Of a stretch of 64,000 nt of DNA, positions 1 to 31,760 are shown piece by piece. Positions within the stretch are counted from its first letter, which is position 1; the number at the start of each line of letters is the position of its first letter. Origin of the DNA: Agelas oroides (Eukaryota; Porifera; Demospongiae; Agelasida; Agelasidae); the NCBI GenBank assembly GCA_949130485.1, contig OX422205.1, positions 2,462,415-2,526,414 of the forward strand, written 5' to 3'. Made by a program: the position numbers and the translations under genes. The notes beneath the pieces were generated by a model. That model was not told the origin of the DNA, made no database searches, and saw nothing but the letters and a program-made list of their open reading frames with translations.

Positions 1-1218
1 GTAAGGTACATCATTTTAGTTTGGTAGTTGAGTTTGTCCATACTGTGCAACTGCGCTCTTCCATGCCCTACAATTACATTGTTTTTCTGTATTCAAATGA
101 TGCCCACTTGTCCATACTGAAGTGCCTTCCATTGTGAAGAAAATTGCTTCTGATATAAGAGAATGCAAATCTCCAGGTAAAACGCTACCATTTTACAGGA
201 GGCATAGGGATAAGGGTCTGTACTGTGTATGCATGAATTTGTGCTATATCTCTCATGGGGCAGGATAGTAGAAGTAGGTATGGCGAACATCAAGAACGTA
301 CCCTAATCCATGCACCTCACAACATGACTCATGCCATAGGAGTAAGACTAAAGATAAATCTGCAGTGTGACAGCAACAGCCAACCCTGTTATCGTCAAAT
401 GCATATTATTCAACTGCTAGTAGTACGGCACACCTCGAGAAAGACTCAGATTGATGGCATCAGTTCTCATCTCATGCCAGCCCCCCGGCAAAAGTCTCAA
501 GGCTAATCTCCGATCGGAAACCAGTTAATAACTTTGTATGGACTGCAGTGGTGACAAGAAACAACCTAATGCTGGTTGGTAGTTCCATATCCCATTGTCT
601 CACCATATACTCAGAACAGTTAAGGCAGCATATGTACATATAAATCATATACCCATCAACTTTTTATATAGTAAATTTAATCTCATGAACCCATGGCAAC
701 ATGAACATGGGGTTTGTAACAATGACAACAATGATGCTTCCCAATTCTATAAATGAAAACAATTTGTTGTCATGGCAACTAACTAACAGCCGCGCTCATG
801 TAAACAAGCCGTTTGTAGCAATAAATACAGCAAAATGCGGAACTGAATACGTAGCTTGAGAGCTAAGCCACTTGTACTGTAGCCACTATTACTATTGGTC
901 ATGGTCTAACAGAAACACAGTGGCATGAAACAGCAATCCTTTTCACGGGTGCTATATAATCGTAAATAGGCAAAAATTGGGGCATATTTGGGTAGTCCTT
1001 AACATCTAAACATTAAGGCTTTCGCAGCACAGCATTAACAGCACTAATGCCACTTGGTTATGAAAACTTCAACTCCTCCTGTACACAGAAAAGCCATCAG
1101 ATCTTGGTTCCAAGGCTGGCGAGTGTTCCGCATAAACCGCCACAGACAATCGGTCATCGTTGCTCGAAATGACTTGAGCCTTCTGTCTTCTGCTCGCAGA
1201 AACACGCAGCTCTCGGTC
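1..1218. other. stretch without a recognisable gene
   Basis: I see no conserved coding region here. Short open frames exist on both strands but show no family motif, and no tandem repeat or long inverted repeat stands out. It is probably intergenic or decayed transposon DNA. Confidence 0.5.
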
Positions 1219-1311
1219 TCAGTGATACCTCTTCTGAAACAAAGCTATACAGAAAAGACTAACGGTCAGAATAACGATGACAAAGTTAAGAAGCCTACAC
1301 TCGGCAGCCAT
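1219..1311 (-). CDS. short ORF with a signal-anchor-like segment (possible first exon)
   Basis: A 30-residue frame begins MAAECRLLNFVIVILTVSLF and is almost entirely one hydrophobic segment after six residues, as in a type II membrane anchor or signal peptide. An AG/GTATCA splice donor lies just before the stop, so it could be a first exon of a membrane protein reading toward coordinate 1. I find no convincing downstream exon in the window. It may be chance; the only support is hydrophobicity and a plausible start. Confidence 0.2.
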   Translation of the reverse strand: MAAECRLLNFVIVILTVSLFCIALFQKRYH

Positions 1312-1930
1312 TCAATTTCTGTAAACTATTACACAATACCTTCGCGTACTTCCGTGTTACGAATAATAAATTTAAGGCCTCCTTAATCGTTCTGAGTAGT
1401 AGAGTATTCTACTGTCTGTGGTCTCACACATACCTGCTATGTGCAAGCATCTGTCTAACGAGAATAGTGGTTCTCATTTTAAGTAAAGCACAAATTTGAA
1501 ACTAACTTTTTGTGTACCTGAACTTGACTGTGTAGAAGAGCAACTGGGAAATGTGTAAATGCATGGGAACTTGAATGAGAGCAAGGTGTACCACACCTTG
1601 CATGTACTGCAACGGTAACTCAGAGCATCCAAGGAGAGGTAACAGAAATGCTTGATATGAAGGGATGAACATTTAATTCACTCAACATATATTCCTGTGA
1701 GTATTTGGAGTATCCATGTCCACAACAAATAGCAAAAAGAACAACTCGAAACTGAAGGGTTCTGGGCTTTCAACTATAAACTGAACTTCTAGCTGCGCAC
1801 ATGTTGTTAGATCACGCACATATTGTCCATACGCGGTGTACATACGCATGCATTGTACGTACGGCGTACAATACATGCATATATAAATAAATCAATATAT
1901 CAGAAAAATGCTGCCATTCAAATGACTAGG

Positions 1931-1956
1931 TTGGGGCTCGCTCACGCTCACCCCAA
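1931..1956. repeat. isolated inverted-repeat end (GGGGCTCGCTCA family)
   Basis: A near-palindrome reading TTGGGGCTCGCTCACGCTCA and ending in CCCCAA. The GCTCGCTCA-type core resembles the ends of the dispersed repeats at about 16,690-17,240 and 43,930-44,450, so it may be a solitary end of that family. Confidence 0.3.
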
Positions 1957-2059
1957 TTACCAAGTGTGTTCGTATGAACAATCAATCTGACTTGTAGTTT
2001 ATCTTAGACCGTCCAATAGAATACAAGACTGCAGTCAAGTTTAGGTACAAAAAACGCTG

Positions 2060-2926
2060 TTTTCAAATTTGTGCAATTGGTTTGCTCCCTCTATTTTTTT
2101 AGCTGCCAAGGGTAATTATAATGTTGGTACTGCTCACATCCAAGGGGCAAATAACACTCTTGCTGACCATCTTTCCCACTTTTCCATTCAGGCTTTCTGT
2201 ATAGCAGCACCACAAGCAGAACAGCTTCCATGCCCATTCACCACCCCTGCCAACTTGACCCAGCACTAACAACCAGCCTCCAATGGTTTCAACAACTTGG
2301 AGTTACCCCCCGCACCATGCACACATACCCCAATATGTCAACAAGGGAATCAGGGTGAGGTCCAGCACCCAAGACTGCCCATCACTACTTCAATCCGATG
2401 GTAACTCAAAACTCAGCTGCATCACTGCAGTGATCTGGAATACCATGACAAATGCATGCATTTTGCCTGGCCTTCTATGGGTTCCTTCGGTCTAGTGAGT
2501 TCGTCTCCCCAACCCCACACAGCTTTGACCCCAGCACAACCCTACTTCGTAGTGATGTTACCATACTCCCCACAACCATTTTGTTGACACTAAATCTTCC
2601 AAGACATACCCATTCCGGGAAGGCTGCACACTATACATTGGCAGTACAGGTAACTCAATTTGTCCATCTCTGCAATGCAAAAGCACAAAAGTCTGACAAG
2701 TAATGCACCACACAAGCTACTCTTCCACTTCAGCGATGGCTCCTACTTAACTCGCACAGCAGTCACAGCAAGGATTCGAACCTTGCTAAATGCAGCTGGC
2801 CACCAGGCTTCCTCATTCAGCAGCCACTCATTCCACATCAGTGCAGCCTCGACCCCTGTAGAGCCAGTCGGGGAGCCCTGCATCTGCAGCGGTTTGTATA
2901 CAAACCCTTGGCAGGTGGTCCAGTAA
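2060..2926 (+). pseudogene. tyrosine-recombinase retroelement remnant (RNase H end plus recombinase)
   Basis: Several overlapping plus-strand frames together read like the 3' part of a DIRS/Ngaro-type retroelement. At about 2,120-2,180 the RNase H end is visible (AHIQGANNTLADHLSH, where the family has HIPG...ADALSR). From about 2,440 the tyrosine-recombinase core follows (AFYGFLRSSEF), and at about 2,820-2,900 the conserved box near its end reads SHSFHISAAS. The family motif is HxFRxGAAT-like, so the catalytic arginine is a histidine here. Frameshifts and stops break the ORF at least three times. It is a dead copy. A short duplicate of its 2,181-2,214 segment recurs at 4,163-4,199. Confidence 0.7.
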
Positions 2927-2929
2927 GGC

Positions 2930-3680
2930 CACTTCAAATTGATACATGTTCACAGCCCGACCGACCTATAAATTTCCTTGAAGTGCTTGAAAACAAAATT
3001 ACGCCACAGAGTTGCACGTGACTAACGCTGTTACAGCATTTTGCATGCAAGATGGATGCTAGTTTCACTTAGTCTGTCCACTAGACAGAGTTCAACAGTT
3101 ATAGTTAGTAGAAAAATAGTAAAGTGTGATTGGTTTACTATGTATGGAGAAGCTCTTGACAAGTTAGATCCTCGGTTGAGCAATGTCACGGTTAAAAAGT
3201 GATGTTGTCTTCAAACGAACAGTTCAAGGACCCTGTACATGAGGCACCGTTGAACGCGCTGGTACAGCTGTGCCAATCATATGGTTCCAACATCTGCCAT
3301 TAAGATGCTGAAGCTATGTCCCAAGATCAGGTTGGTAGGCCTACTCGTAATGCCTTCCAGATTCTCATGCCAAGTCTTCAAAACCGTGCACGCAAAGGAT
3401 CCTTCCTAGTCGCATTAAAGGTAGTTCCCTGTTTCTGCCTTCATCAGAAATTTTCTGAGACACAACCATTGTGAGACAAGCTATGGAGTGCACATACGTG
3501 ATAACAGATGGTTTGGAATGTTTCATGCCAATACACCACTTCATCTGACCGTGCCTGGGTATGAGGCTAGATGTTGGCATGTTTGGAGATGAAAGTAGAC
3601 AGGCTACGTAGCCAGTGAGCTGATTTGTGGAGATAGTGTGTGTAACTAGACTCAGCTATTTTACTCTAAATAGCTGATCA
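2930..3680. other. stretch without a recognisable gene
   Basis: No conserved motif, RNA gene or strong repeat was seen between the YR remnant and the RecQ-like pseudogene. It may include unrecognised 5' parts of the latter. Confidence 0.4.
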
Positions 3681-3689
3681 CTGCTAAAC

Positions 3690-4640
3690 ATCTTGTCACC
3701 TTGTACCCGGAGAACTTAGCTGCTCTTGCTGTTGATGAAGCCCACTGCATTAGCAAATGAGAGATGAATTTTGAGTTGCTTTTGCAACAATTGGAGATTT
3801 GAGCAGTATTGCACCTACTCACGTCAGCAATGCTACTCAGGAGACTTTACAGGTGGTGTCGCACTGCCTCCTAGCTGGAGGAAGTACATTAAGATCAGTA
3901 ATAGCCACCACATAAATCACCCCCATGTAGATGTTTGATGTAGAGTTTACAAAAATTATTCAAGGTTGAACGTTTCCACCAGACATCACATGTTGATCTC
4001 TTGGTGCACACTCTCTAATTTTGAGCTGTATTCATCTTGCTGCGGTATGTTAGCATTCAGTATTCATTAGCTGCAGTAACCTTCAAAGGGAATTAACTTT
4101 TAACTCCTATTTCCATGCATGAATATGAGTGTAAATTATGTTTACTTAGTGTTGGCTAGCCCCATTTGCCATTCAGGCCTTCTGCATAGCAGCACCAAGT
4201 ATTATGTACAAAGGTCAGCCCCTACAGAACTTGGAAGAGTTTAGCATCGGTCTCAGTACTGATCTCGGGATTGCTTTGCTGGAAATAGTTACCTTCAGTG
4301 TGAAGTATACTGACTGTTCCCAACTGTACCTGATGATTCGAAAGAAGTTGGGTGGGGTATTTACTTATCCTCCAGACTACCCTGACCTTCCATCAGTTCA
4401 GAGTAGTTGATTTGTACACAAGGGTTTCAACTATAGAGACTACAGAACAAAATTCTCCACTCATTTGAACAGTGCTCTAAGACTTCTGATCGCCACAACT
4501 GCCATTGGCATGGGTGTTGACTGCCGAGATATCCGCACCATTATACATTGGGAGGTTTCTGGTGTATGTTCAGGAGATGGACAGGGCTGGGTGTGCCAAT
4601 TGAGGTGTACTAATGTACATTGTTACCAGGAGACTTCTTT
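3690..4640 (+). pseudogene. RecQ-like DNA helicase pseudogene
   Basis: Helicase motifs appear in order on the plus strand in different frames. Motif II reads LAVDEAHCISK at about 3,720-3,756. A linker near 4,300-4,380 reads YTDCSQLYLMIRKKLG (family-like 'x-DCSxLY'). Motif V reads RLLIATTAIGMGVDCRDIRT at about 4,479-4,540, and beyond it is a degraded motif VI (QEMDRAG in another frame; QETGRAGR in the family). RecQ helicases unwind DNA 3'-5'. Here stops separate the pieces and motif VI is lost, so the gene is broken. A second, different fragment lies at 46,815-47,408, which suggests a multi-copy or transposon-associated family. Confidence 0.7.
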
Positions 4641-4649
4641 CTACATTAG

Positions 4650-5900
4650 TAAGTGTAAGTGTTGTGATATCTGTGCTAGAGTTTGTATATGTATTATGTA
4701 TTACCCAGTTGGTGATGGTGACATTTCATTAAAGATTAACATAAAGCAGACAGTAACATCAATACAGAATCTTGTCAATTTTTCTCCTTAGTGTGTGGAG
4801 GCCTGACTCCAAGATTATTCACTGTATACATTATTACATGCATGTAGGCAATATTGGACAACAGTGGGACACACTAGAGGGTACTCTTCCCACTGAGAGG
4901 GATCTGGCGGTGGACCAGAGCCACTGTCCCCACTCACAGGTACACACATTAACAGCATTTCCAACTTTATATCACATACTCTGGCTTGTGTTCTCTACCC
5001 TTCCAGAGCTCGTTTCACAGATGAACATCAAACTGGCATAGCCCCTCAAAGTACACCAGTAAGATAGGTGGATAGATAGATTAGCAGGTAGGTAACCAAT
5101 ATCAGGGTTGATACAGATTATTTTCCTGGGGGGGGGAAGGGGGGAAGGGTGGGGGGGTGGGGGATGTAGATGGATGCAAAGGGTGCATGTGTAAATCCAT
5201 GCACCCATTAAGGGTTTTGTAGATTTTTAATGAAATTTGACACCTATTCAAGACTTCTGCTTCTGAAATCACCCCCAGTTTGTTCCCTCAAGGATGGCAG
5301 ACATACCTCCTCCAGTGAAGTGGTGCTGGGCACGACACAGCACATGTTAAGATTTTCCATAGATTATCTTGCCACACATAGTGGCACAGCAACGATGACT
5401 AGACTACTTCATACTTACAGGAAGGACATTTCATCTTACAAAACAAATGTTTTGGTTAGAGTCAGAATTTTTTCCCGCCCATTCCAACATTTTTGAAGTA
5501 GAGACATCACCAGATGACAACATTTTAATAAAATTGATACCAACCTAAGTGTTATAGTTCTGCCTATTGTGCTATTAATTCTCTAATTAAGGTGACACGC
5601 TGGTCACTCCGAGGAGGTTAACAAAACATAAACTAGAGTTACAGTCGGGACCAGAGTTACTCCTAGTGCCAGGGTTAGGGTGTTGGCTTTCAAGAAAAAT
5701 TCGACACACCTCCACTCAAACCAACCAAAACTGAACCCAGTTTCAGAAAGCTCAACTCATCCACCAGCTACAAAACTATAGGTAAGCTTTTTCCCGCTCA
5801 CCTCCAGGCCAGGGAGTTTTGTCCACAAATCTACTTCCTGTCATTGCCCCTAGAATGGAGCTAAGTTACACACATTCCCGCTAGCATAAAAACAGGCGGG
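4650..5900. other. non-coding stretch with a G-rich tract
   Basis: No supported gene. At about 5,127-5,164 the plus strand carries several runs of four to seven guanines separated by A or T, a possible G-quadruplex or mispairing-prone tract. An 88-residue frame at 5,230-5,496 shows no recognisable motif. Confidence 0.4.
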
Positions 5901-5901
5901 C

Positions 5902-7661
5902 CTACACTGTAAAAACGGGAGTGTGCATAGCACACCTAACTAGTCTCACACCATTGGTGTGTCACCCACAGGAGTGTGCAAGGCACACCTCTTCTGTGTG
6001 TCCATCACACCATTTCAGTGGGTGTGACAATTATTAAGTGTGTTACACACACCATGGTAGTAAATAAAGTGTGTCATCCACACCCATTTAGCACATCACA
6101 ATAATATTGGTGACAGACAAAGCCTGCACACCGACCTGTTAAACCAAATAGCACCAATGAGTCATGCAAGCTATTCACATACAGAGAATGGGTATGGATT
6201 GGAACTGCACTCATGTCCAGCCTTGCCACGAACTGGCTAAATATTAAATGGAACTGGCTGGGATCCTTCATGCTGATGCCCTATATAGCTACTTTGAGAG
6301 TTGTTAGGAGTGTTACATGCATGTGTTTGAAGTCATGCAGTAATTTTCTACTCATTTAGCTAGTTATAATCATCACAGAAGGCTAATAGCTAGGTGTTGA
6401 TCCAAGAAAGACAAGAAGTATAGCAATCAACTAGCACAATTTTGGAAAGACACAAAAGAGGAAATGATTTAGCTACTGATGGTGGAGAAACCATGAGAGC
6501 AGTAATATAATACTGCTGCAATTAATGAGTGAAATACAGAAATGACTGAAGGTATGCATCTCTATAGTGTCTCCAGAGAAAAGCACAGCTATCAGTTATG
6601 CACAAGGAAGACGGTAAAGCTATAACACTATACTTGTGAATATAAAAGTGAAAGCCCCATGTGACTTTTGGAGGAAGTGCTTGTGAAGGTTGCAGTAGGT
6701 CAGGCCAGTAAAATAATTTATGACAAAGGCATTAACCATTATGCAGTAGATTTACAGTTACTGGGAAACTAAGAATGTTATCACAGAAATTTTAGATACA
6801 TAGTTCAGTGTTCATTATCAGATGCAGTATAGCTACCAAACACATATTGCATGATAACGGTACAATTTGGTAAGATACACTATATAAACCGTGTGGTGGT
6901 TTGACTCCTCCGAACCCCGCTTCTTCATGTGAGCCGATCGTTCCCTGCGCGCGGAAGGGTCTGGGCGGGGTCTGGGCACGAGATCGAGATCGAACGAACA
7001 AGGGCGCAGGGCTCATTCATGCTTCGTAGATGCATCAATATCTAATGAGTCTACGAAGCATGATATAAGCCCTGCCCTTAACTCTTAGCACGCGATGCGC
7101 CAATATATTGGCGCACGGGCTATACACGCGTAGCGCGATATGCCAATATATTGGTTGTGGACAAGAAGGTTGTAGATGATGTGTCATTTGAGGACATACC
7201 CTACATTTTAATGGCAGCGTTCTTTGTTTACAACATTTGCTACCCTAAAGGGTGTATTAATTTGTATTCTTTCTTAGAGGTTGTTTTGTTAAAGTTTAGA
7301 TCTGACAAAGCTTCACCTACTGTGAAGCATCTTCTAGCAAAACTTAATGTGCATTGAGTATTTCTTATCTTTGTACCTTCATTGTTATTATCTTTTATAC
7401 CGTCAATTGTTGAACAAAGTATTTCTATTCTAATTTTGTGTGCTATCCACACACATTTTGGTCTGCATGTATGTGTACTATCCACACACACTTTGGTGTG
7501 CAAAGCACACTAACTAGAGTGTTAGTTGCACACCACTGTTGGTGTGCAACTAACACTTCCCCATAAGGTGCGATTAGCACACTCGTTTTGGTGTGCGTAT
7601 AGAGACATTGCTAGCACACCCTATTTGGTGTGCTCTCCACACCAAAATTTTTACAGTGTAG
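5902..7661. mobile_element. TIR element with GTGTG/CACAC subterminal motifs
   Basis: Perfect 14-bp inverted ends, CTACACTGTAAAAA at 5,902-5,915 and its complement at 7,648-7,661, bound about 1.76 kb. Inside both ends lie many short motifs of the type GTGTGCATAGCACAC or TGGTGTGCAA, some palindromic, at 5,918-6,090 and 7,436-7,640. This is the layout of transposase-binding subterminal repeats. I see no clear target-site duplication. A compact hairpin (CATGCTTCGTAGA at 7,018-7,030 and its complement at 7,050-7,062) lies inside. The superfamily is not assigned. Confidence 0.6.
7151..7357 (+). CDS. short uncharacterised ORF, probable terminal exon
   Basis: A 68-residue frame with ordinary amino-acid composition (contains DDVSFEDIPYILMAAFFVYN and ends KHLLAKLNVH). 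It lies inside the 5,902-7,661 TIR element. Its first codon is TTG, so it is more likely an exon or fragment than a complete gene. It could be part of a carried or captured gene. I do not recognise a family. Confidence 0.3.
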   Translation: MVVDKKVVDDVSFEDIPYILMAAFFVYNICYPKGCINLYSFLEVVLLKFRSDKASPTVKHLLAKLNVH

Positions 7662-8530
7662 AAGACCGAAGTCAGCTTTCTACTGTACATTTGCCAGACA
7701 ACTGTGTGATGACACCCATCTTCCAGGATATGCCTTTCCAGCACACTCACAAGCCCACTGCATCCAGCAAGCTTTATGGTCACATGACAAACCCCCGCCC
7801 ATCAACTGCAAAGTGTGTGTCTGCAGACTGTGCTTCCTCGGTGTGAACAGTCTGTCAGTTGATATTTCTAGCTAATAGAAGTAGTTCGCTACCAGAAACT
7901 TGTAGCTAATAGATGTAGTTTGTTGTCAGTGTGCCTACTGTAGGTTGTATACAAGGTTCCAGAGCTGCAAGTTGGGATGATGCGCGTGTGGTCACTTGAA
8001 GTGTCAACACTTTTGGTCATAACTCAGGTCAGCAGTTGTTCATTCTCAAAGTTAATGAAATAAAATTACCTTCATGCTAAGATAGTTAGTTTGGCCATTC
8101 AAAAATCCTGTGTCACCACAGGTAAAACTTGTTGATAGCAAATGTTAGGTTCCATGTAGTCACCATGGGTTGGCTCTCAGCTTGCAATGTAGGTACTTCA
8201 ATGATTACTGCTTCCAGCTGTACTATCAAGCTTGAATAAGTCCCGTTAGGCTCATAGAGAAACGCTACAATAGTAGGGTGGTATTTATTTCAGATATTTT
8301 CTGCTCAAGCATCTCGCGCACACGATGCACTAACTCAAGTGACTTTCTAGCCCTGGAAATGGATGTTGGTGGATCCTAAATCAAAGAGTACAGTCTTGAT
8401 TTTCTAATTTGTATGCTCCATGTGGAGTTCACATGGGATGTTACACCCAGCGTGACCATCAGCATGAGCTCCATATGCTTCATCCTGAGAGGACATACTT
8501 CTCTACATTTGGATGATAAACCCTGGAAGT
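7662..8530. other. stretch without a recognisable gene
   Basis: Nothing supported on either strand; no RNA gene or clear repeat. Confidence 0.4.
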
Positions 8531-10254: not shown

Positions 10255-10630
10255 CTCTGTTAAGGTAGCCCATATTGCGGGACATAGGAATACAGGAGCA
10301 GACGCTCTGTCAAGAAATAGTATGCACCTCTTCTTTTTGTAGGTCCCTACACCAGACAAGACCTCAACTGCCATCCCAATGGCACTGACTGAGCTTCTGG
10401 TCCACCAACAGCCAGACTGGACATCACAAACCTGGTCCCTACTGCTGTTTGTAGCAGGTCTAGCTCTAGCTACCAAGAGAGTTTACAAGTCAGGGGGAGT
10501 ATGATATCTAAAGTAGTGTGCTGATGCCAAGGTCACACCTTTCCCAACAGCCAAGAAGATCCTGCTGGTGTTTGTTGGTTTTCTGCACCAGCATACCCCA
10601 TACAAAAATGACAAGGTTGCACAAGCACGT
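10255..10630 (+). pseudogene. YR retroelement remnant: RNase H end and recombinase N-terminus
   Basis: The frame reads VKVAHIAGHRNTGADALSRN (end of RNase H). It is followed by LLVHQQPDWTSQTWSLLLFV...ATKRVYKSG and, after a stop, VTPFPTAKKILLVFVGFLHQ, the N-terminal SAM-like DNA-binding part of the tyrosine recombinase. It stops abruptly near 10,605 at a block of GACAAGGTTGTGACAAG motifs. The next segment of the same kind of protein appears at 24,860-25,034, so the two may be halves of one element split by later insertions. Confidence 0.65.
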
Positions 10631-10765
10631 GACAAGGTTGTGACAAGTTTGTATACAAGAAACATGCTATCAACAACCTTGCTTCCAGGTTATGACAATC
10701 TGGTAAAACCTGGTGGCAAACTAGCTGGTATTTTTGCATGAGGTTGTGACAACCTCAGTTGATCA
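10600..10765. repeat. cluster of GACAAGGTTGTG-type motifs
   Basis: Motifs such as GACAAGGTTGTGACAAG, ACAACCTTGC and GGTTGTGACAACC recur in both orientations. The same motif family appears at 24,720-24,850. This looks like the subterminal region of a transposon end. Confidence 0.45.
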
Positions 10766-10769
10766 GAAA

Positions 10770-11585
10770 TCTGCTGACTGTGTTTTTCACCCCGTCAGTC
10801 CTGGCAGCTGCAAGCTGTTTGGGCACGAGCCAGCTGTTAAACCCCGACATTATTGGAGCATGCTCTATTCCTAAGTTAATTATGGTACAGGTAAATGTAA
10901 TTACGTACCTTGCCTGGCTGGTGGTAATAAGACTGCATGTGCAACCATCAGGCAGATTTCTAAGTATTATATGTACCGCTATACCTATATAGCCAACACC
11001 TATTGCACAATGGAGATCGATGTTGATTATAACAATTACCTAATGTGTTGCCCAGGTATATAATGATCATGTATCTATACTAGATCATCATTCCTAAAAT
11101 GTTATGTCGTTCAAATCTGGGATCTGTTCTGTCCAAGCATTCAACGATGTTTTTGTACTTTTTTTTTGATGTTAATCTCAGTTAGACCTAAGCCTAAGAA
11201 GAATATTTCGAGTGTAACCACAACACCAGAACTTGAAACAGCATTGACAGTTTAGTAGTGGTTCCAGGCATGTAATAATTATGTGTAATATTGCCAGCTA
11301 GAACCTGGTGAAGGGCCAACCACTCGCCGTACCAAACTCTGTGAAACCAATTTCCTGATTCAGTTCAATCATATGACGACTGACCAGCTGCAGCACAGAA
11401 AACTATACTGACAACTGATCATCCTAGCTTTACAGTTCAATAACGTTGTCAGTAGGCTATTTTTTAGTGTAGCTACAAGTAGGCAGCTGAATGCAGTGCC
11501 TTATCTACATGGCGTTCATAAGCCTTGCCCAATGCTGCGGCGGGAAAAGACCGTGCCAGTCATGCATACTGCCCGCTGGCAATTT
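10770..11585. other. stretch without a recognisable gene
   Basis: No supported coding region, RNA or repeat. Confidence 0.4.
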
Positions 11586-15732: not shown

Positions 15733-15894
15733 TTACTGCGGTGTTTTGATCGGAACATTGAAAAATGTGTCGGGTTCACTTTCCAAAACATCCGATTGGT
15801 GAAAACTTCAATAACACCTGTGTCATGAAAGTGACTGTATCCTTTCAGGTGCTCAGGTTTGTTATTGAACCCTTATGGAAATGTTCACAAGATC

Positions 15895-16110
15895 ATGTAA
15901 GAATCTTATAAGAACAGTTAAATCTTATAAGATTCACTAAATTCTTATAAGGAAAAAAATGTTGTAGTGATATACAGGTTTTCTTACAAGAAACTCATGT
16001 TTCTTATAAGAGCCTTGTAACAACCTTGTAAGATTTCTTGGAGGAAAAATTCTTGTAAGACGACAACTGCATGAATTCTAACAAGAATATATATCATGCA
16101 GTTTTAAAAT
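15895..16110. repeat. left subterminal palindromic motif array
   Basis: Repeated motifs such as GAATCTTATAAG, AATCTTATAAGATT, TTCTTATAAGG, TTCTTACAAGAA and CCTTGTAAGA follow the left TIR. Most are perfect or near-perfect inverted repeats of about 10-14 bp. They are candidate binding sites for a transposon-encoded protein. Confidence 0.7.
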
Positions 16111-16311
16111 TGTTATAAACTAATATTAATGCAATTATATTTTTAACAGAAGTCAGCACTTAGAAAGTGATGATGTGATTCAAATAAGTACATGATGGAA
16201 TAATGTTTGATTTCTACATGATGGCATGGCCATGCACATGGCTGTGTATATAGTATAAATACGTACATATATACACATATAATATACCAGCACATATTCT
16301 TGAGACATAAA

Positions 16312-18169
16312 TTAATCTTTCTCATATGTATTAGGAAGTATGCACACATAAGGAGAATCTATTTCAATGTACAAGCATTTCCTATAAATTTGAGTTATTG
16401 GTACAACAACAGTGGTAGTGCTCTTTTGCACTGGTATGAAGATCTTGTCAACCAAACCCCTTAACTCGTAACTACCAAGATGAAGTCCAGATGATGGTAC
16501 ATTGGGTAGAGGTAGTACAAATGCTACGTACAATAGTTCATCCTTTCCTGGAACTACTGCATAGAACTCAATTTGCCCAAAAGAAGAGCTTGCAAATTGT
16601 ACTGTGTAACTGTTCCTCTTTTTCACTTTTTGGTACCTGAGGGAAAGGTTATGTATGTACCATGTATACACTACTAATAAGATGCTAAATCATCCTGGGG
16701 CGAGCCTGAGCGAGTAACAAATTGCATTTGGAGTGCCCACACAGACATGCAGCTATTCGTCCAGCCAGACTGCTATGGCTACAAGGGCATGGGCTAAGCT
16801 TCACAGTCAAACCATGAGCTAGCAGGAGAATCCTATGAGCGGTCATGCCAGGAGTGTACCTGAAGCCAGTGTACACTGGGCCCTGCTGTCCGACTGTCAC
16901 TTGCAGCCTGCCTTAATTGTCACGCGATCGTCAGACTCGTACCATGGTTCAGAAAGTACGTTGCCTGCATACTGCCAATGCATTCAACTTGAATAGTCTT
17001 CACTCTCACTCTCTTTCACACTGACCCTGGAGTCTGGCAGTAGCTCTTCGTGCTCGTTTTCACGGCTTCAATCATCGTGAAATATTTGAATGCGCTGATT
17101 TAAAATTTATGGTAAGTGGTCAGTCCTAACAAGCATAGATAGATAGACAGATACACACACGTGTGCGCAATGCAGTCTTCGCTCGCTGACGGCCCGTGAA
17201 CAGGATAGGCAGAGAAGAGCACAGCATCGTAGTAGGGAGACTACACAACAAAGGTGAGCTTGCATAAACAGGTTGGAACGATGCCAAGGGCAGTGAGAAC
17301 CATGTAGCAGCTAGAGGTAATTTTGGCCATTAAAAATGTGGTTTAACTAGATTATACTCACGTCCTCAAAATCGTCGACTTCGTCAAGACTACGCTTTGC
17401 TATAATTTCTGTCCAGACGTCCACTACCAACTTCCCACGTGCTCTGCGTGAGGCACATCATGCACATGCGTATACCTAGTAACTCAATCAATTGTAATAC
17501 CTGGAGCTATAGTACATAACTCCATGCAGATGCACTCTGGTGAAGTACATGATCTCATGGCCAGTGGTTAGCGTTGGAGCACCCATTGCACTAAGGAACT
17601 CATTCAAAGCCCTTTGACAATCTCCTTCAATTCTCATCTTTTTCCTCTTGCCCACACTGAAACACCGATCAAACAGGGTCTCCCAGTTGTTCCTATGCAT
17701 ATAGTATTGTCAGAATCATGTCAATAATGAAGGCCACACTACAAACTGATCGTACAACAATTCACTACCTCACCGAAGGTTGTGTCCGTTTAACTGCCTG
17801 AGCAGTATTTTGGCTGAGTCAGAATCACTGTCGAAATGGTTGCTGCTACGGAGCAAATGCCCATTCATACTTTCAAACCAAAAGCAAGTAAAACTGGTCA
17901 AGCAAACTTTGAGTAGCATCTAGGCGGTGAACAGGAATCTTCTCACTGAGCAGAATGTGCATACAGCAAACCAGTAGAGCAAAATGCTCATACAGGGCAG
18001 CTGGGAGAATATCCTTCAGCACAGGCAAGGAATAGAAAAGCATCCATGCCCAGTACTCGGAAGCTGTGTACAGGGTATACACAAATAAATGTAATACCAA
18101 ATGCTCGTTTGTTTTTTTTGTGTTGTTTATTTATATACACAATAGATACACAATATATATGTATACATG

Positions 18170-18206
<37 letters not shown>

Positions 18207-20329
18207 AATGAACCTTTCCAGTGTTTGCGGCTGGTGACTTTTCGAGGTGTCCTTGTAATGGTGTCTGGAGGTTTGATTGACAGGAGACGCTCATTGGCTA
18301 ACTCAGCAGCATGGGCACCAACATAGTACCCATTTCGTGAAGGTGTGAACCAAAGGGCACACAACTTCTTCCCAATGCCCTCAAGAAGACAGTGCATGTA
18401 ATCAATAACCATGCCGTTGATTATGTTAAATGAGGGCAGGATATGGAGTGCTGACAACCCCTGGACACCAACACAGGGCTACACATGAACAAGAGACACG
18501 TTACATAATGGAAAACTATGTTTGGGTTTATATTGATTGCATAGTTACCATCTGTGTTCTGAGTGCTTGTTTGCCATGTGCATGGGGTTCCCAGTGGGTT
18601 CGGAGTGGTGCTGGGGGATTCATGCATTGATATACTCAGGCATTTCCCCTCCCAACTGCAACAACTTCACCTTCCTGAGTACACACAGAACACCCATACT
18701 GTCCATTATACTGATTGAAAGCCAAAACCTTAGCTTTTCCTGGAAGATCTGCAGTAACGCACAGCACCATTGCCCTGCATGTTGTCATTGTCTGTCCTGG
18801 ACCAACTGGAACAGCAATTCCTGTAGTTGTCATAATGGTATTAACATGTGGCAGCATATCCTCTTACGTCACTTAAGGTATACCTTTAAGCTGTAACAGC
18901 TTGCATCGCTCAATAACTGGTCGAAGGAACTGAAACACTGGAGGCTGCTTCTGAGAGCACCACAGACCCACTAGAATGGTATATTTCTTTGTGAATCTAT
19001 GAATAATAATGTCATGGTGGACATAATCTACTTGCACCAATACATAGTTGTTCAGAGACATAGTGCTGCCGTAAGAGATTGTACTGTGATTCACTGGACT
19101 AACACACAGCTGAATAGAAATTTTAATTTCGAACAGTCTGTACAACTATTCATTAGGCCACGCAATGAAGAGCATCAGACTGTTTGAAACATTATTTCTG
19201 TTCGGCCATGTGTTAGTACAGTAAATCATGGTACATAATATTTGTTGTAGCTGATTTCACTTACCTCAAAGGTGGTGCTAGCTCATTGATTACTAAGTAG
19301 ACTGGCCACAGAGTCACATTTGACGACTTGAATACTTGGGCTCCATCAGTGTTGATCACAAATGACAAATTCATCGGATTTGCAAGAAACCCATCTGCCT
19401 CCATGTGCTGCTTGTAGGCCTCCTCATCGTAAATATCTCTGATGTACACTTCCTCTCCTGGTGCTGTTCTTTTGAATCTCCCAAGCAGTAAAGAGTGAAA
19501 TTCCTTGTCCACTGGGATTACAATTATAACTTAAGGTATGTTTAATAGTAGTATCTAGTGCCACAACTTACTTTCAAACAAACGCTTGACCTGCAAGTCA
19601 ATGGGAAGTTCAAGGAAGAAGTCATCAGGCTCATTGCTTGCAACAGGGCAGCTAGGATTTTGGCAGTAGGCCTGATCGTTCTGAAGGTAACCCTGACATT
19701 TTCCACACAGCCTGTACGTAAGTATACCAATACATCATTAGATTTTGCAACAATATGAGTCCCTGCAAATTTAATATCACTGCATGGTATTGGTAAATAA
19801 TTCTAAATCTTCACCTGTGTGTAACTGTGGCAGTGCTGATGCTGCTCCCCACTGTAGCAACTTTTTTCAGGAGTCTGTACACAAACTTGTAGGCTGTGGG
19901 TACAGGTGTGCCAGCTGGAATGTGCATGCACAACACTTTGAGAATGTCAGCTAGAGCAGAGAAGCTAAGTTTATGCTTTGTAGCCATGCTCATCAACAAT
20001 GCCACTCCCATATCCTCGCTAATCTTGGCCCCAGGGTATAGCAAAGCGCTGCTGTCAGCCACACCTTCCCCTGACTCGCTCTCGCTGCCAGCATCCTTAG
20101 GGGATCCTTCAGTGCGATCGCTGTGACTGCTAACGTCTTCAGGGATTTCTTGTTCTCCGCATGCTCCGTCATTTTCTTGGTTGCTATTAGCGCTAGCTCA
20201 ATCGGTACTATCGTGGGTGGAGCTCAGTGGCCTCGACCGCACTCTCCAGTTGTATCGTGTTTGTCTCGGAATCCATCGGCCTGGTTCCGTCAAGTAAGAC
20301 CTGTATGGTCCCCGTTTACGACCAGACAT
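16312..20329 (-). CDS. Tnp2-like (CACTA/EnSpm) transposase, nine exons, two in-frame TGA
   Basis: Exons: 20,329-19,815; 19,711-19,572; 19,511-19,265; 18,996-18,884; 18,860-18,549; 18,478-18,214; 18,063-17,774; 17,692-17,501; 16,636-16,312 (about 800 codons). The start MSGRKRGPYRSYL is typical. Exon 2 has a zinc-ribbon-like box (LCGKCQGYLQND...CQNPSC). Exon 3 has FLANPMNLSFVINTDGAQVF (catalytic N/D-TDG region) and LWPVYLVINELAP. Exon 5 has DLPGKAKVLAFNQYNGQYGC (substrate-binding CxxC region). Exon 6 has MVIDYMHCLLEGIGKKL, and exon 7 TASEYWAWMLFYSLPVLKDI. Together these match the Tnp2 transposase family, which cuts and pastes the element. A TGA at 20,200-20,198, a second TGA at 18,638-18,636 and a frameshift near 17,890 indicate recent inactivation. 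The splice sites are otherwise canonical. Confidence 0.85.
16690..17240. repeat. dispersed repeat, copy in Tnp2 intron
   Basis: Shares collinear blocks with 43,930-44,450 (TAAGCTTCACAGTCAAACCA; CTCTTTCACACTGAC; TTTATGGTAAGTGGTC; GTGCGCAATGCAGTC). The ends carry GGGGCGAGCCTGAGCGAG-like sequence. About 550 bp, no ORF; probably a non-autonomous transposon inserted in the last Tnp2 intron. Confidence 0.55.
18173..18204. repeat. (GT)n microsatellite
   Basis: Dinucleotide run in the Tnp2 intron between exons 6 and 7. Confidence 0.9.
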
Positions 20330-20599
20330 ATCTCTCCGGTAGTCTTTCGGTGTACAGTCTACTGTGCATGTGTGTTCAGGCCTCAGGCCTAGCTCACCAG
20401 ACATTTAGCTTACTGTATACTGTAGATGATGTTTGCACGTTGATGCTTCAGCCAATAGAAACCCACTGTGCATGTGCAAATCGCGCAATGAGGGGAAGGG
20501 CAGCTGCAGAACACTCACTTCAAGCTAACAAGAGCTCGTCGGTTGGTTTTGCTGCATGCGGAGACAATTAAAGTTCGCTGGTTCAACAGCGCAAAAAGA
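20330..20599. promoter_or_regulatory. shared divergent promoter region, Tnp2 and BEN genes
   Basis: The two start codons (20,329 minus, 20,600 plus) face away from each other with 270 bp between. No other gene fits between them, so both promoters must lie here or overlap the first exons. No TATA box is evident. The role is inferred from position only. Confidence 0.5.
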
Positions 20600-23500
20600 A
20601 TGGAAGACGGTGCAACGCGGGTTACAAAGCGTAAAAGAACGTCTTTGGATAAACTGAGGGATGCCCTGTTTAACGAGCGCCAACCTGATACGCTGCAAAC
20701 GTGGAGAAAACAGCACAAGAACGGTAAGTGTGTGTGTGCGTGCGAGGTGCTTGTATAAACTCCACTCTCAAGCGCTTGTAAGTTCCACCCTTAATTAAGT
20801 GCATGCTTGTAAGTAAAGTGCTACATAGCACCACAGGTTGTTGTAAGTTCCTCCCCTAAGTGCTTGTAAACTAACCAAGCAATTCTGCATAGCGCCTCAG
20901 GTATTTGTCAAGCCAGCCGCACGTCCAATAATTATTTTGAGCATTGGGGTGCTTGTAAGTTCCTCCCCTAAGTGCACGACTGTAAACTAACTGTATAGCG
21001 CCTCAGCTATCATTTATTTTATTAGGCAACCACATAATATTAGTTTAGGCATAAGTGCACTGTACTTACTGTTTAAAAATTTAAATTCACACAGTGAAAC
21101 TTAAAGTTTTGTACAGAAATGGTGAGGAGGGCTGTGTGGACATAACAAAGGTGGAGCCAGGTGATGACTTTGAGGCGCCAAAAGAAGGCAACAAAGTTTG
21201 TTGCAAAGTCAGTGGGGCATGCTATGGAGCAACTGTGCTGGAAGTTCTTACCAAAAAGTCTGCAACAGGTGCCGAACTGGTATGTGTGTTATAGAAGTGG
21301 TATGCAACTGAAACACTGAATTAAAAGTGCTACATATTAATTTTAGGGTAAAACACCAGCAACAAAAGCACAACAAAAATGCAAGGTCTATAAACATATA
21401 TATACACATATATATATTTACCTCAAGACTTGCAGTCCTTAGCCCTTTAAACACTGAATTTTTTCACTGGAGATTAGTTTTAGCCTAAACATGCCTTTAA
21501 CGCACTGTATCTCCATTTGTGTCAAAGCTCTGACTCCAAAACTGAGCCCAACTCCACTTCCAGCCTTAGCAAGCAGACACGTGACCTTAACCACGCCCCC
21601 TCATTAACGAGCATGCAATGGTCAGCACTCTCGATTGGCAAACACCCGCTTAGAGCCCAAGAAGCCTTCCCTGCCAGAAATGAACCCCCTGAAAGGTGAG
21701 AGTAGCATTTTCTAAGCCTGCTCATGCAGCCAGGCCAAGAGTTGGCCCACCCGGTGCCAACCACGGTCCTTTTGCAGCCAAGCCTAGCAGCTGCCATGTG
21801 CACAGCACCCTGCGGGTGACCCCACCCACCTCCCCCTGTCCCACCCTTTCTGCTGACGCAGAACCTGCGCGCCAGCGCGCAGAGACTATCTTTTCTGCGC
21901 AGTGCGCAGTATGACGTTATCAAAAGTGTACTATAGGGTTTAAAGGGTTAACAGTGAAGTGAGTCAAAACAAAAGGCAGCATTTAATGATATTCATGAGG
22001 GCTCTGTTGACCACTACAACCGGACAGTGTCGAGTAAGGGCTTAGAATACTGAGTTGGCCACTGCTGGTCTCTGCAAGGCTGTAATGATATTCATAACCA
22101 GTCCCAATGTGCCAAACTGTATCCAACTGCTTGTTAATGAGATTCATAGCCCATAATGAGACTAATGGCCCACTTGGAGCGGGTTACAACTCAGGCAGGG
22201 TCAGACAAAGGCTTAGGGCTCAAATGCACTTCAGCCACACAAACTATTCCCCCCAGATTTCGGCCTTCACACGGACCATTAGCCCTTTAAACACTGAATT
22301 TTTTTCACTGGAGATTAGTTTTAGCCTAAACATGCCTTTAACGCACCGTATCTCCATTTGTGTCAAAGCTCTGACTCCAAAACTGAGCCCAACTCCACTT
22401 CCAGCCTTAGCAAGCAGACACGTGACCTTAACCACGCCCCCTCATTAACGAGCATGCAATGGTCAGCACTCTCGATTGGCAAACACCCGCTTAGAGCCCA
22501 AGAAGCCTTCCCTGCCAGAAATGAACCCCCTGAAAGGTGAGAGTAGCATTTTCTAAGCCTGCTCATGCAGCCAGGCCAAGAGTTGGTCCACCCGGTGCCA
22601 ACCACGGTCCTTTTGCAACCAAGCCTAGCAGCTGCCATGTGCACAGCACCCTGCGGGTGACCCCACCCACCTCCCCCTGTCCCACCCTTTCTGCTGACGC
22701 AGAACCTGCGCAGTGCGCAGTATGACGTTATCAAAAGTGTACTATAAGGTTTAAAGGGTTAAATTAACCACATCATATTATGTTTTAGAAAGCATCCCAG
22801 AATGTAAAGAAGGCACGATTGGATGTTGCTCGACAGGAGCAACTGAAGTATTTCAATATCATCAACGATGATGCCGACGATGATGAGAGCAATTCCAGCT
22901 GGGATGCATCCATCATGGTATATGCAAACTATATGCATTTAGTGGTTACATGACCACGATTGAATTGTACTTTTCTCTGTACAGCTGCCAAATGAAACTG
23001 TCCAGACCAGGGTAGGGTATTCTTGTGTAGTAACATAATTTAGATTCTGAGACCAGCGACTTTATACTAATATGTCTTCTTGAAAACAGGAATCCATCAC
23101 TAAACAAATTCAAATGCTGCTGGCTCCTATCCAGAGGAGCTTAGACAGCATTAGTGACAAATTGGTAATTATATGTGTACAATTACATAATTGTTGTGGT
23201 GGATCGAAGTACTGAGGTTTTTCGTGTTTACGTACAATAGGATGATATACTATTCCAGTCACCACCAACTCTCCCAGCTCCCTCTAAACTGACATCGTTA
23301 ATACAGTTGAGCAAAGAAATGGTGCAGGTACACTACTTCAAGTGACTGTGTGCATGTGCTTGGTATTAAGCTGTACAATAATATCCCATGTTGTAGAAAA
23401 CCAAGGCAGATACACATATAGCACCATCACTGCAGCAAACATCAGCAATATCTCCAGAACATGGGACCGAACCTATCCTGGGTGTCCAGGAGGTGGTTTG

Positions 23501-24156
23501 TGAAACATCACCACCACTACCGCCACCGCCACCATCACCACCAAAGCTGGTGAGCTTACATACTGAAGTCAGTTTATTATGTGCAGTGAGAACTGTATTT
23601 TACATAATTATTTCACAGCCTCCTGCTGAAGATCACACACACACACCTGGCCCAAAGCCACAGTTTCCTGTGAGTGTCAACAATATAATCCCTCTGCAAA
23701 CCTTGAGTTGGATATGATAAGGAGCATTTTTTTTTCACCCTCCTTTAAGGTGCAATATTCCACGGTGGGCTCCATCAAAGTCAACATAGCTAAGCTTACG
23801 ACTGCTTCAAAGGCTCCCAATCCATACAGGATGGCCAGGAAACTACTTCCTGAATTTTTTACAAAGGAGGAACTCTCCACTTGTACGTGTGCTCCCCCCA
23901 AACCAGGTGCCAAAGTTAAGCGCCCACAAGCGGACAGCGAAAGGATGAAACTACTTCTTGGTATGTAATTAACGCTTACCATTCCTGCCAAAATTCAGCA
24001 TCAAAATAACTTGATCCTGAAGAATCAGATTCGCTCTTTTCTTGCTTTCTCCTTGTAGAGGAAGTAGCAAAGGTGTTTCCCGGAGGATGGGACAACAAAA
24101 ACATGCTCAGCAATCTCAATCAAAGCTTTATTGACTATCGTAACAAGCATAATTAA
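20600..24156 (+). CDS. BEN-domain protein, ten exons, intact
   Basis: Exons: 20,600-20,723; 21,095-21,279; 22,789-22,917; 22,985-23,011; 23,090-23,164; 23,241-23,327; 23,397-23,549; 23,619-23,669; 23,750-23,960; 24,059-24,156. All junctions are GT/AG and stay in phase, giving 379 residues. The start MEDGATRVTKRKRTSLDKLR is basic. The middle has an acidic patch (NDDADDDESN), a coiled region (KQIQMLLAPIQRSLDSISDK) and a proline run. The C-terminal ~90 residues (APNPYRMARKLLPEFFTKEE ... VAKVFPGGWDNKNMLSNLNQ ... FIDYRNKHN) have the BEN pattern 'ARxLLxxLFTKEEL...INxxFxDYR'. BEN domains bind DNA, often palindromic sites, in chromatin factors. Inside this transposon it may play the role of the second CACTA protein; that is inference. 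No stops or frameshifts, unlike its Tnp2 neighbour. Confidence 0.8.
21439..21951. mobile_element. piggyBac-like MITE, copy A
   Basis: 513 bp with inverted ends TTAGCCCTTTAAA and TTTAAAGGGTTAA, consistent with TTAA-targeting piggyBac-type non-autonomous elements. It lies in intron 2 of the BEN gene. Nearly identical to copy B except for a block of about 29 bp near the right end (repeated GCGCAG motifs), present here only. Confidence 0.7.
22279..22762. mobile_element. piggyBac-like MITE, copy B
   Basis: 484 bp, same orientation and ends as copy A and about 327 bp downstream. It lacks about 29 bp between short GCGCAG repeats, as expected of replication slippage. The high identity implies recent local duplication or insertion. 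Confidence 0.7.
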
Positions 24157-24289
24157 CTAGCAAACAAACACATGCAGAAAGGACTGAGTGCATGCATGAC
24201 CGAGATTGTGATTGTATCAGGATGACCTGCAAGTATTTCATTGTGTGACTAACATACGACTGACTGGAAGTGAAACAAGATTCTTGCTT

Positions 24290-24566
24290 CTCTATAAGAA
24301 TCTTATGAACAAGCAAGATTCTTATGAGATTTAATTCCATAAAAGTTTCATAAGATTCTTGTTGGAATCTTGTAAGAAAATATTCTTACAAGAGATTTGG
24401 GACAGTTATGTAAGATTCTTACAAGATTCTTATAGCATTCTTGTAAGATTCTTATATGAATCTTATGTAGCCGTCCCAAATCTCTCGTAAGAAACAATAC
24501 ATACAGAATACCACCATCACACAAGAATTTGTATTTTCTTATAAGAAACTTATAAGAAATACGTAA
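24290..24566. repeat. right subterminal palindromic motif array
   Basis: Dense motifs such as ATAAGAATCTTATG, GTAAGATTCTTACAAG, TTCTTATAAGAAACTTATAAG precede the right TIR. They mirror the left array in motif type but are more numerous. One long inverted pair, GAGATTTGGGAC and GTCCCAAATCTC, encloses part of the array. Confidence 0.7.
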
Positions 24567-24699
24567 GATCTTGTGAACATTTCCATAAGGTGTAGTCCAA
24601 AACTGCTGCAAAACCTGTTGGTTTCCTTTTTCATATATGGAAACCTGTAAGATAAACTTGTTATTTTTTCTTTGGTTGTTTTTTTTGTCAACTATCAGA

Positions 24700-24855
24700 G
24701 TATTTATGAATTTGAAATTAAGTTGTACAACCTTGTCAGAATGAAATTCGGCAGCCTGTGACAAGGTTGTACATAAATGGTTATCTAAAGTACTGGCAAG
24801 GTTGTTGTGACATGGTTGTGACAAGATTGTAGCATCCTTGTACAAGCTTGACAGT
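24700..24855. repeat. GACAAGGTTGTG-type palindromic motif cluster
   Basis: An inverted pair TTGTACAACCTTGTCA / TGACAAGGTTGTAC is followed by more direct copies (GACATGGTTGTGACAAG). Same motif family as 10,600-10,765; both clusters abut recombinase-remnant coding sequence. Confidence 0.5.
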
Positions 24856-31567: not shown

Positions 31568-31760
31568 GTGGTACAGGTAACTTTCAGCAAGGCCATTTTA
31601 CTGGCAGGTACATGTGACTTACCTGTCAAGTGCTTGGTACTGAACTTTCGCCAGTTCAATGGCTTCATGGGATGTAGCAGATGTTTACAGCCAGGAAAAA
31701 CCTTGAAACTAGGCCCAAGAGCACACACTATATGGTGGATGTGTATGGAATTTAGGGGCT
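31568..31760 (+). pseudogene. Tnp2 transposase fragment
   Basis: The frame reads ILLAGTCDLPVKCLVLNFRQ then FNGFMGCSRCLQPGKTLKLG. This is the same substrate-binding segment as exon 5 of the full transposase (DLPxKxxVLxxxQFNGxYGCxxC), including its CxxC. No other Tnp2 exon is seen nearby, so it is an isolated remnant of a third Tnp2 lineage. Confidence 0.65.

Follow-up and report, generated by a model that had tools for sequence, protein, structure and literature searches.

A decayed CACTA/EnSpm-like transposon of the sponge Agelas oroides carries a BEN-domain gene alongside its Tnp2-type transposase gene

The window analyzed here, a stretch of 64,000 nucleotides from the sponge Agelas oroides (contig OX422205.1, positions 2,462,415 to 2,526,414), contains at positions 15870-24591 a single transposon, in which a gene for a Tnp2-type transposase and a gene for a BEN-domain protein lie between inverted ends. 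The window copy is degraded and represents a decayed animal jumping gene with a BEN gene alongside the transposase gene. The pairing of the two genes is real, since it recurs between matching ends at a second element of the same genome, located on C21. The element is probably CACTA/EnSpm-like, with a BEN protein in the role that TNPA/TNP1 has in plants, which would imply that this protein binds the palindromes inside the ends. An initial annotation of the window had put forward the BEN protein as the partner binding the subterminal repeats; this hypothesis fits the anatomy of the element, and that interpretation as a whole is partly supported.

Perfect inverted repeats of 24 bp had been claimed for the ends, and the sequence confirms them, with 24/24 matching positions between 15871-15894 and 24567-24590. 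A comparison of related copies places the family terminus one base further out, giving the ends CCCTTATG...CATAAGGG. Here, the left end keeps the outermost base, a C at 15870, and the right end has a T at 24591, where the related copies have a G. An origin of these ends as a chance inverted repeat was rejected, because they recur in the genome with 2-bp duplications. Also an inner boundary, TGGAAATG...CATTTCCA, with TA on both sides of the window copy, was considered. It was discounted, because the C21 element has the same inner match, yet its outer ends are flanked by a duplication of their own. Just past the right end, at 24720-24850, repeats of the same ACAAGGTTGT type are present, so the element may have inserted into, or next to, another transposon's end.

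The ends are packed with short palindromes, as stated in the initial annotation. The motifs CTTATAAG, CTTACAAG or CTTGTAAG were counted in an outer zone of 330 bp per side, which revealed seven on the left and six on the right, compared with three in the 8,062 bp between the end zones and one in the remaining 55,278 bp of the window. Dinucleotide shuffling of both ends together, repeated 1,000 times, gave a mean of 0.05 motifs and a maximum of 1, vs 13 observed. The C21 element displays the same distribution, with 7 + 6 motifs at its ends (13 in 660 bp; shuffle mean 0.056, maximum 2) and one in the 7,468 bp between. Clustered subterminal repeats, a hallmark used to define CACTA/EnSpm elements, are thereby found in both elements.

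Between the ends, two genes face apart from a shared region, as had been proposed, with Tnp2 on the minus strand, BEN on the plus strand and approximately 270 bp between the start codons of the models. For Tnp2, the joined exon pieces, with X at two stops, match PF02992 (Transposase_21) with 40.5 bits against a cut-off of 28.6, whereas one exon alone reaches 13.7 bits and stays below it. The window protein therefore carries the Transposase_21 domain that marks the CACTA/EnSpm (CMC) group. At least 21 homologues were found at E <= 0.001 among 7,994 candidates scored, including proteins from Mercenaria, Pecten and Ambystoma. These mollusc and amphibian relatives, together with the BEN domain and the spliced gene models, suggest an animal host. 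When the window protein was aligned with nine of the at least 21 homologues, the columns D270, D360, D452, E574, C379 and C382 were invariant; D270, D360 and E574 we take to be the catalytic D, D and E. The catalytic residues and the C(2)C motif are accompanied by an H(3)H, matching the expected H(3-4)H, in the C21 copy, and this motif is deleted from the window copy. Stretches at 17068-17480, within a Tnp2 intron region, are 85-90% like C2:6962-6974 kb and belong to another repeat, inserted or shared. Additional Tnp2 fragments are present in the window at 31589-31747 (+) and 55927-56193 (-).

The BEN gene, as predicted from the DNA, comprises 11 exons with 10 introns, all GT...AG, and an open frame of 392 residues. 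Omitting the 39-nt exon at 21347-21385 gives the protein of ten exons and 379 residues described initially; both models are retained, because the donor of this exon looks weak. The full model matches Pfam BEN (PF10523) with 25.4 bits, above the cut-off of 23.2, and the C-terminal part alone reaches 28.0 bits, in agreement with the claim of a BEN domain near the C-terminus. The domain is interrupted by an intron, and residues about 170-198, which precede it, appear coiled-coil-like by eye. No relative of the BEN protein was found in the protein database at E <= 0.001 (5,080 candidates) or at E <= 10 (39 candidates), and among solved structures no sequence match was present. Intron 3 contains two copies of an approximately 500-bp repeat (21439-21951 and 22279-22762), 99% alike over 300 nt, which start with TTAGCCCTTTAAAC and end with GTTTAAAGGGTTAA and, by eye, look like a piggyBac-type short element inserted twice. 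These repeats, as well as the broken frame of Tnp2, had been overlooked in the initial annotation.

The second element was reached via a match in the search with the right end and spans 8,128 bp at C21:4458382-4466509 (383-8510 of region L040). Its ends, CCCTTATGGAAAAAGTTGTAAG and CTTACGACTTTTTCCATAAGGG, are of the CCCTTATGG type and related to those of the window element, match each other at 84% over 63 bp and are flanked on both sides by CA, a 2-bp target duplication. Here, the genes diverge as they do in the window, with Tnp2 on the plus and BEN on the minus strand. Co-occurrence of Tnp2 and BEN between matching ends with target duplications, which at several loci would establish the pairing according to the initial annotation, is therefore found once. 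The Tnp2 pieces of both elements share 31-63% identity. For the BEN protein, 41/126 residues of the N-terminal part and 65/96 of the BEN domain are identical, with 68% in the core exons; against Pfam BEN, the C21 relative scores 18.4 bits, which is under the cut-off. The DNA of the two elements is similar only at the ends and in some coding stretches. This, together with the target duplication that C21 has of its own, led to the rejection of a segmental duplication. Of the differences across 64 aligned codons of the BEN core, 16 fall on the first, 10 on the second and 46 on the third codon position, with silent differences in 31 codons. This third-position bias indicates that the BEN gene was kept under purifying selection while the window and C21 elements diverged. 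Upstream of the good BEN core exon, the C21 element also contains a second, degenerate version of it (L040 1849-2022, minus strand).

Using the window ends, the host genome (259 Mb) was searched and 14 short-copy regions were examined, from which L030 was left out as it has one end only. The remaining 13 short copies carry both ends, CCCTTATG...CATAAGGG, one of them with a single change; 12 are 1,550-1,675 bp and one is 3,225 bp long. Exact target duplications of 2 bp, differing in sequence from copy to copy, flank 12/13, L023 being without one. Pairwise identity is 96.7-99.9% among 11 of them, and L021 and L029 reach 90.3-95.6% against the others. Every one of the 13 contains 6-8 motifs per end and 0-1 between, so that what is retained at their ends is the terminus plus the palindromes. 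With the two BEN and the two Tnp2 queries, tblastn detected neither gene in these copies at E <= 1. Since the duplications are exact, the identity is high and neither gene is seen, the short copies appear to be non-autonomous and to have been mobilized in trans, fairly recently, by proteins made elsewhere. The initial annotation held that copies having these ends without the BEN gene would refute its reading. Literally such copies exist, but they show neither Tnp2 nor BEN, which makes them ordinary non-autonomous derivatives. At the other loci with a solo end (L031-L036), apart from L038,, no BEN or Tnp2 was found at E <= 1. At L038 (C2), an end with five motifs lies approximately 2.6-2.9 kb from a stretch resembling the last BEN exon (50% over 30 amino acids, local E 0.002-0.005); this is a possible fourth remnant and was not counted.

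A third locus joining end DNA to BEN is, judged from sequence similarity, present on C12 as a remnant. Here, a BEN relative of the same subtype is found at C12:2933045, with 81% identity over the last exon (2933045-2933152) and one stop. The subterminal DNA from the BEN side of the C21 element recurs at 2931148-2931225 (91%) and 2931858-2931935 (86%) in the same relative orientation, 1.1-1.9 kb from the BEN exon, with the outermost 15 bases of the end outside the match. No Tnp2 is present at this locus among the matches listed. A further relative of the same subtype, with 49% identity, is located at C6:2486249. The initial annotation had also named a BEN gene that is single-copy at an orthologous host locus as evidence against its reading; within this genome, the relatives on C21, C12 and C6 contradict a single copy.

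For the genome-wide comparison, BEN was searched exon by exon with three protein queries. The Tnp2 loci were counted with one coordinate per locus from matches at E <= 0.001, leaving out further exons of a locus; C2:5876556/5878901 was taken as part of C2:5870118, 6-9 kb away. BEN matches at E > 0.001 (C17:5870673, C2:5809355, C23:3262259 and C2:5922410) were likewise left out. Among the matches listed, 4 of 11 BEN-like loci (E <= 0.001) lie within 6 kb of one of 39 Tnp2 loci, where uniform placing expects 0.02 pairs. This enrichment is only a guide, because the window is one of the four, two C21 pairs adjoin and transposons cluster. In the second C21 pair, a BEN-like domain at C21:4453582 (L039; 39% over 49 residues, E 0.005), which does not match Pfam BEN, lies 1.1 kb before the Tnp2 at C21:4454704 on the same strand. 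Only one weak candidate pair of ends was found for this Tnp2, and an element is not claimed. With this BEN-like domain as query, a match was found at C2:10104601 (+), 5.1 kb from the Tnp2 at C2:10099465 (-) and divergent from it by coordinates. In the window itself, a BEN-like fragment at 10610-10860 (three-sequence profile, E 0.007) lies right after a repeat array of the TTGTGACAAGGTTGT type and may be what is left of a further element with a BEN gene, one whose palindrome differs. The Tnp2 relatives L055, L061 and L062 have long tandem-repeat tracts, coding for low-complexity protein, in front of the conserved part.

The comparison with known systems draws on the accessible passages of the articles cited. 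Plant CACTA elements need both TNPD/TNP2, the transposase, and TNPA, the protein that binds the subterminal repeats; their non-autonomous copies retain the cis sequences, and between elements the binding proteins have little sequence in common (PMC2613891). Like En/Spm, Tam1 and Tgmt*, the sponge element combines a Tnp2-type transposase, inverted ends and dense subterminal motifs with a second element-encoded protein and with non-autonomous copies that keep ends and motifs (PMC2613891). This second protein is, as known for TNPA/TNP1, encoded within the element, both in the window and on C21. In contrast, the plant elements have CACTA ends and a 3-bp duplication (PMC2613891), and TNPA is a splice product sharing the transcription unit of the transposase, whereas BEN is a divergent gene of its own. 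The C21 element and the 13 short copies carry CCCTTATG...CATAAGGG (one with a single change) instead of the CAC(TA)...(TA)GTG termini. The C21 element and 12/13 short copies are flanked by duplications of 2 bp instead of the 3 bp of EnSpm, a length inside the 2-5 bp range of the CMCT group. Because of these ends and this duplication, a strict CACTA assignment fails: by its protein the element is CMC/EnSpm-like, and by ends and duplication it is not CACTA in the strict sense. Within the CMCT group, CA..TG ends are found in most cases (PMC12730594), unlike the CCC...GGG ends seen here, and the accessible text on this group mentions no BEN gene. The fungal EnSpm families described there have CAC..GTG ends with 3 bp, and Plavaka elements TGT..ACA with 2 bp or CATCA..TGATG with 2-3 bp (PMC12730594). 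Fungal EnSpm/Plavaka elements with a TET/JBP gene are likewise transposons of this group with an extra DNA-related gene. There, this gene encodes a dioxygenase thought to counter DNA methylation (PMC12730594), in contrast to the BEN protein, which is of a DNA-binding type.

Palindromic targets have been described for several BEN domains, namely ACATGT for NAC1 and CCAATTGG for Insv and Elba1 (PMC7764960). For BANP, oligomerisation raises the selectivity, and a coiled coil is present at the N-terminus (PMC11472053). The sponge protein resembles NAC1 in its C-terminal BEN domain, and its candidate targets are palindromes as for some members among NAC1, BANP, Insv and Elba1 (PMC7764960, PMC11472053). 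The coiled-coil-like stretch precedes the BEN domain here, and that of BANP is N-terminal (PMC11472053). Unlike NAC1, BANP, Insv and Elba1, the protein is transposon-encoded, and no sequence relative of it was found in the protein database.

Taken together, the following mechanism is proposed. In relatives with an intact Tnp2 DDE transposase, this enzyme would cleave and join the CCCTTATG ends, giving rise to the 2-bp target duplication. The BEN gene would be transcribed away from Tnp2 out of the shared 270-bp region, and its product would most likely bind the CTTATAAG-type palindromes inside both ends and hold the ends together for Tnp2. Possibly, it would also damp the element's own transcription; plant TNPA/TNP1 act in this manner in CACTA elements. 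Both the binding of the palindromes and a need of the BEN protein for transposition are inferred.

Several observations weigh against this assignment. The window copy has no visible target duplication at the family ends (AA left, GT right); nor is one present at the 24-bp ends (AC left, TG right). Its Tnp2 has an in-frame TGA in place of an arginine codon of the C21 copy at 18636-18638, and has lost approximately 30-40 codons, with a frameshift, near 17880; the lost block carries the H(3)H motif in homologues and the C21 copy. A further in-frame TGA, at 20198-20200, falls within a linker of low conservation. In-frame stops are found in the Tnp2 of C21 as well, so that both Tnp2 copies of the pair are affected, and the C21 BEN reading frame may not be intact. 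For 35/39 Tnp2 loci, no BEN lies within 6 kb among the matches listed, which means that BEN is confined to one branch, often lost or too diverged to be seen. Two of these loci, C11:3162279 and C2:14707169, have Tnp2 frames open for more than 620 codons, so Tnp2 is not always accompanied by BEN in this genome. Conversely, the matches listed include no Tnp2 within a distance of 6 kb for 7/11 BEN-like loci; for those on C12, C6, C14, C1, C15 and at C2:6314957 none lies within 100 kb, and for C2:9221054 the nearest is 15 kb off. Furthermore, the BEN domain of NAC2 is reported to bind a non-palindromic site (PMC7764960).

A different role of the BEN protein would be to regulate the element's own transcription as a repressor, insulator or anti-silencing factor, bound close to the ends or to the shared promoter, without a part in transposition. 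Known animal BEN proteins work in repression, insulation and chromatin (PMC11472053, PMC6911014), and since plant TNPA also has a suppressor function (PMC2613891), the roles of regulator and end-binder may be combined. The motifs, however, crowd at the ends, with 13 in the outer 660 bp vs 3 in the middle 8,062 bp, and not around the promoter region, and a regulator acting outside transposition appears unlikely, although it deserves to be considered. It is very improbable that BEN is a host gene caught by chance in one copy or merely flanked by elements, the pairing being functionless. The ends of the window copy are unique in the genome at high identity, and the many Tnp2 loci without BEN would fit such an accident. 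But on C21 both divergent genes lie between related ends with a target duplication, on C12 a subterminal stretch is joined to a BEN exon, and the BEN differences show a third-position bias. Equally hard to credit is a domestication of the window BEN gene by the host, which would explain why its frame is open across 10-11 exons while Tnp2 has a stop and a deletion. Only two clear lesions are present in the longer Tnp2, so zero in BEN would not be surprising, and the silent-site bias spans the whole split of the two elements, which makes it uninformative on the time since insertion.

Beyond the end-binding role preferred here, BEN and Tnp2-type transposons might share a long history, in which BEN proteins evolved or spread as end-binders with a variant per family palindrome, some animal BEN factors being domesticated descendants. 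Such a history is distinctly doubtful; it would be compatible with the diverged pairs C21:4453582/4454704 and C2:10104601/10099465 as well as with the fragment at 10610-10860. The coordinates of the features are listed in Table 1.

Table 1. Features of the transposon in the Agelas oroides window (positions are those of the window)
Feature	Position	Strand	Basis
Left terminal inverted repeat, CCCTTATGGAAATGTTCACAAGATC	15870..15894	+	24/24 complementary to 24567-24590; outer C common to related copies
Left subterminal palindrome array	15893..16080	.	7 motifs in left 330 bp
Tnp2 (Transposase_21), 10-11 exon pieces, broken	16312..20329	-	PF02992; homologue alignment; C21 comparison
Region between both start codons, presumed divergent promoter	20330..20599	.	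gene models; function inferred
BEN-domain gene, predicted	20600..24156	+	GT-AG introns, open frame; PF10523 25.4 bits
BEN exons 1-6 of the model	20600-20723, 21095-21279, 21347-21385 (optional), 22789-22917, 22985-23011, 23090-23164	+	
BEN exons 7-11 of the model	23241-23327, 23397-23549, 23619-23669, 23750-23960, 24059-24156	+	
BEN domain, exons 10 + 11 of the model	23750..24153	+	Pfam match; 65/96 residues identical to C21 protein
Right subterminal palindrome array	24288..24566	.	6 motifs in right 330 bp; inverted repeats
Right terminal inverted repeat	24567..24591	-	outermost base T vs G in related copies

To our knowledge, the understanding of two-protein CACTA systems comes mainly from plants. 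The initial annotation knew of no description of a Tnp2/BEN pairing, and none was found in the full-text PMC articles searched, as far as titles, abstracts and passages show; Repbase reports and most subscription journals lie outside this scope, where an earlier mention is possible. If the proposed role holds true, an animal end-binder with a recognizable DNA-binding domain and solved relatives would be at hand, which would make the model of a transposase plus an end-binder directly testable. Furthermore, the BEN proteins, otherwise encountered in this comparison as chromatin and transcription factors, would gain a transposon setting and a possible source.

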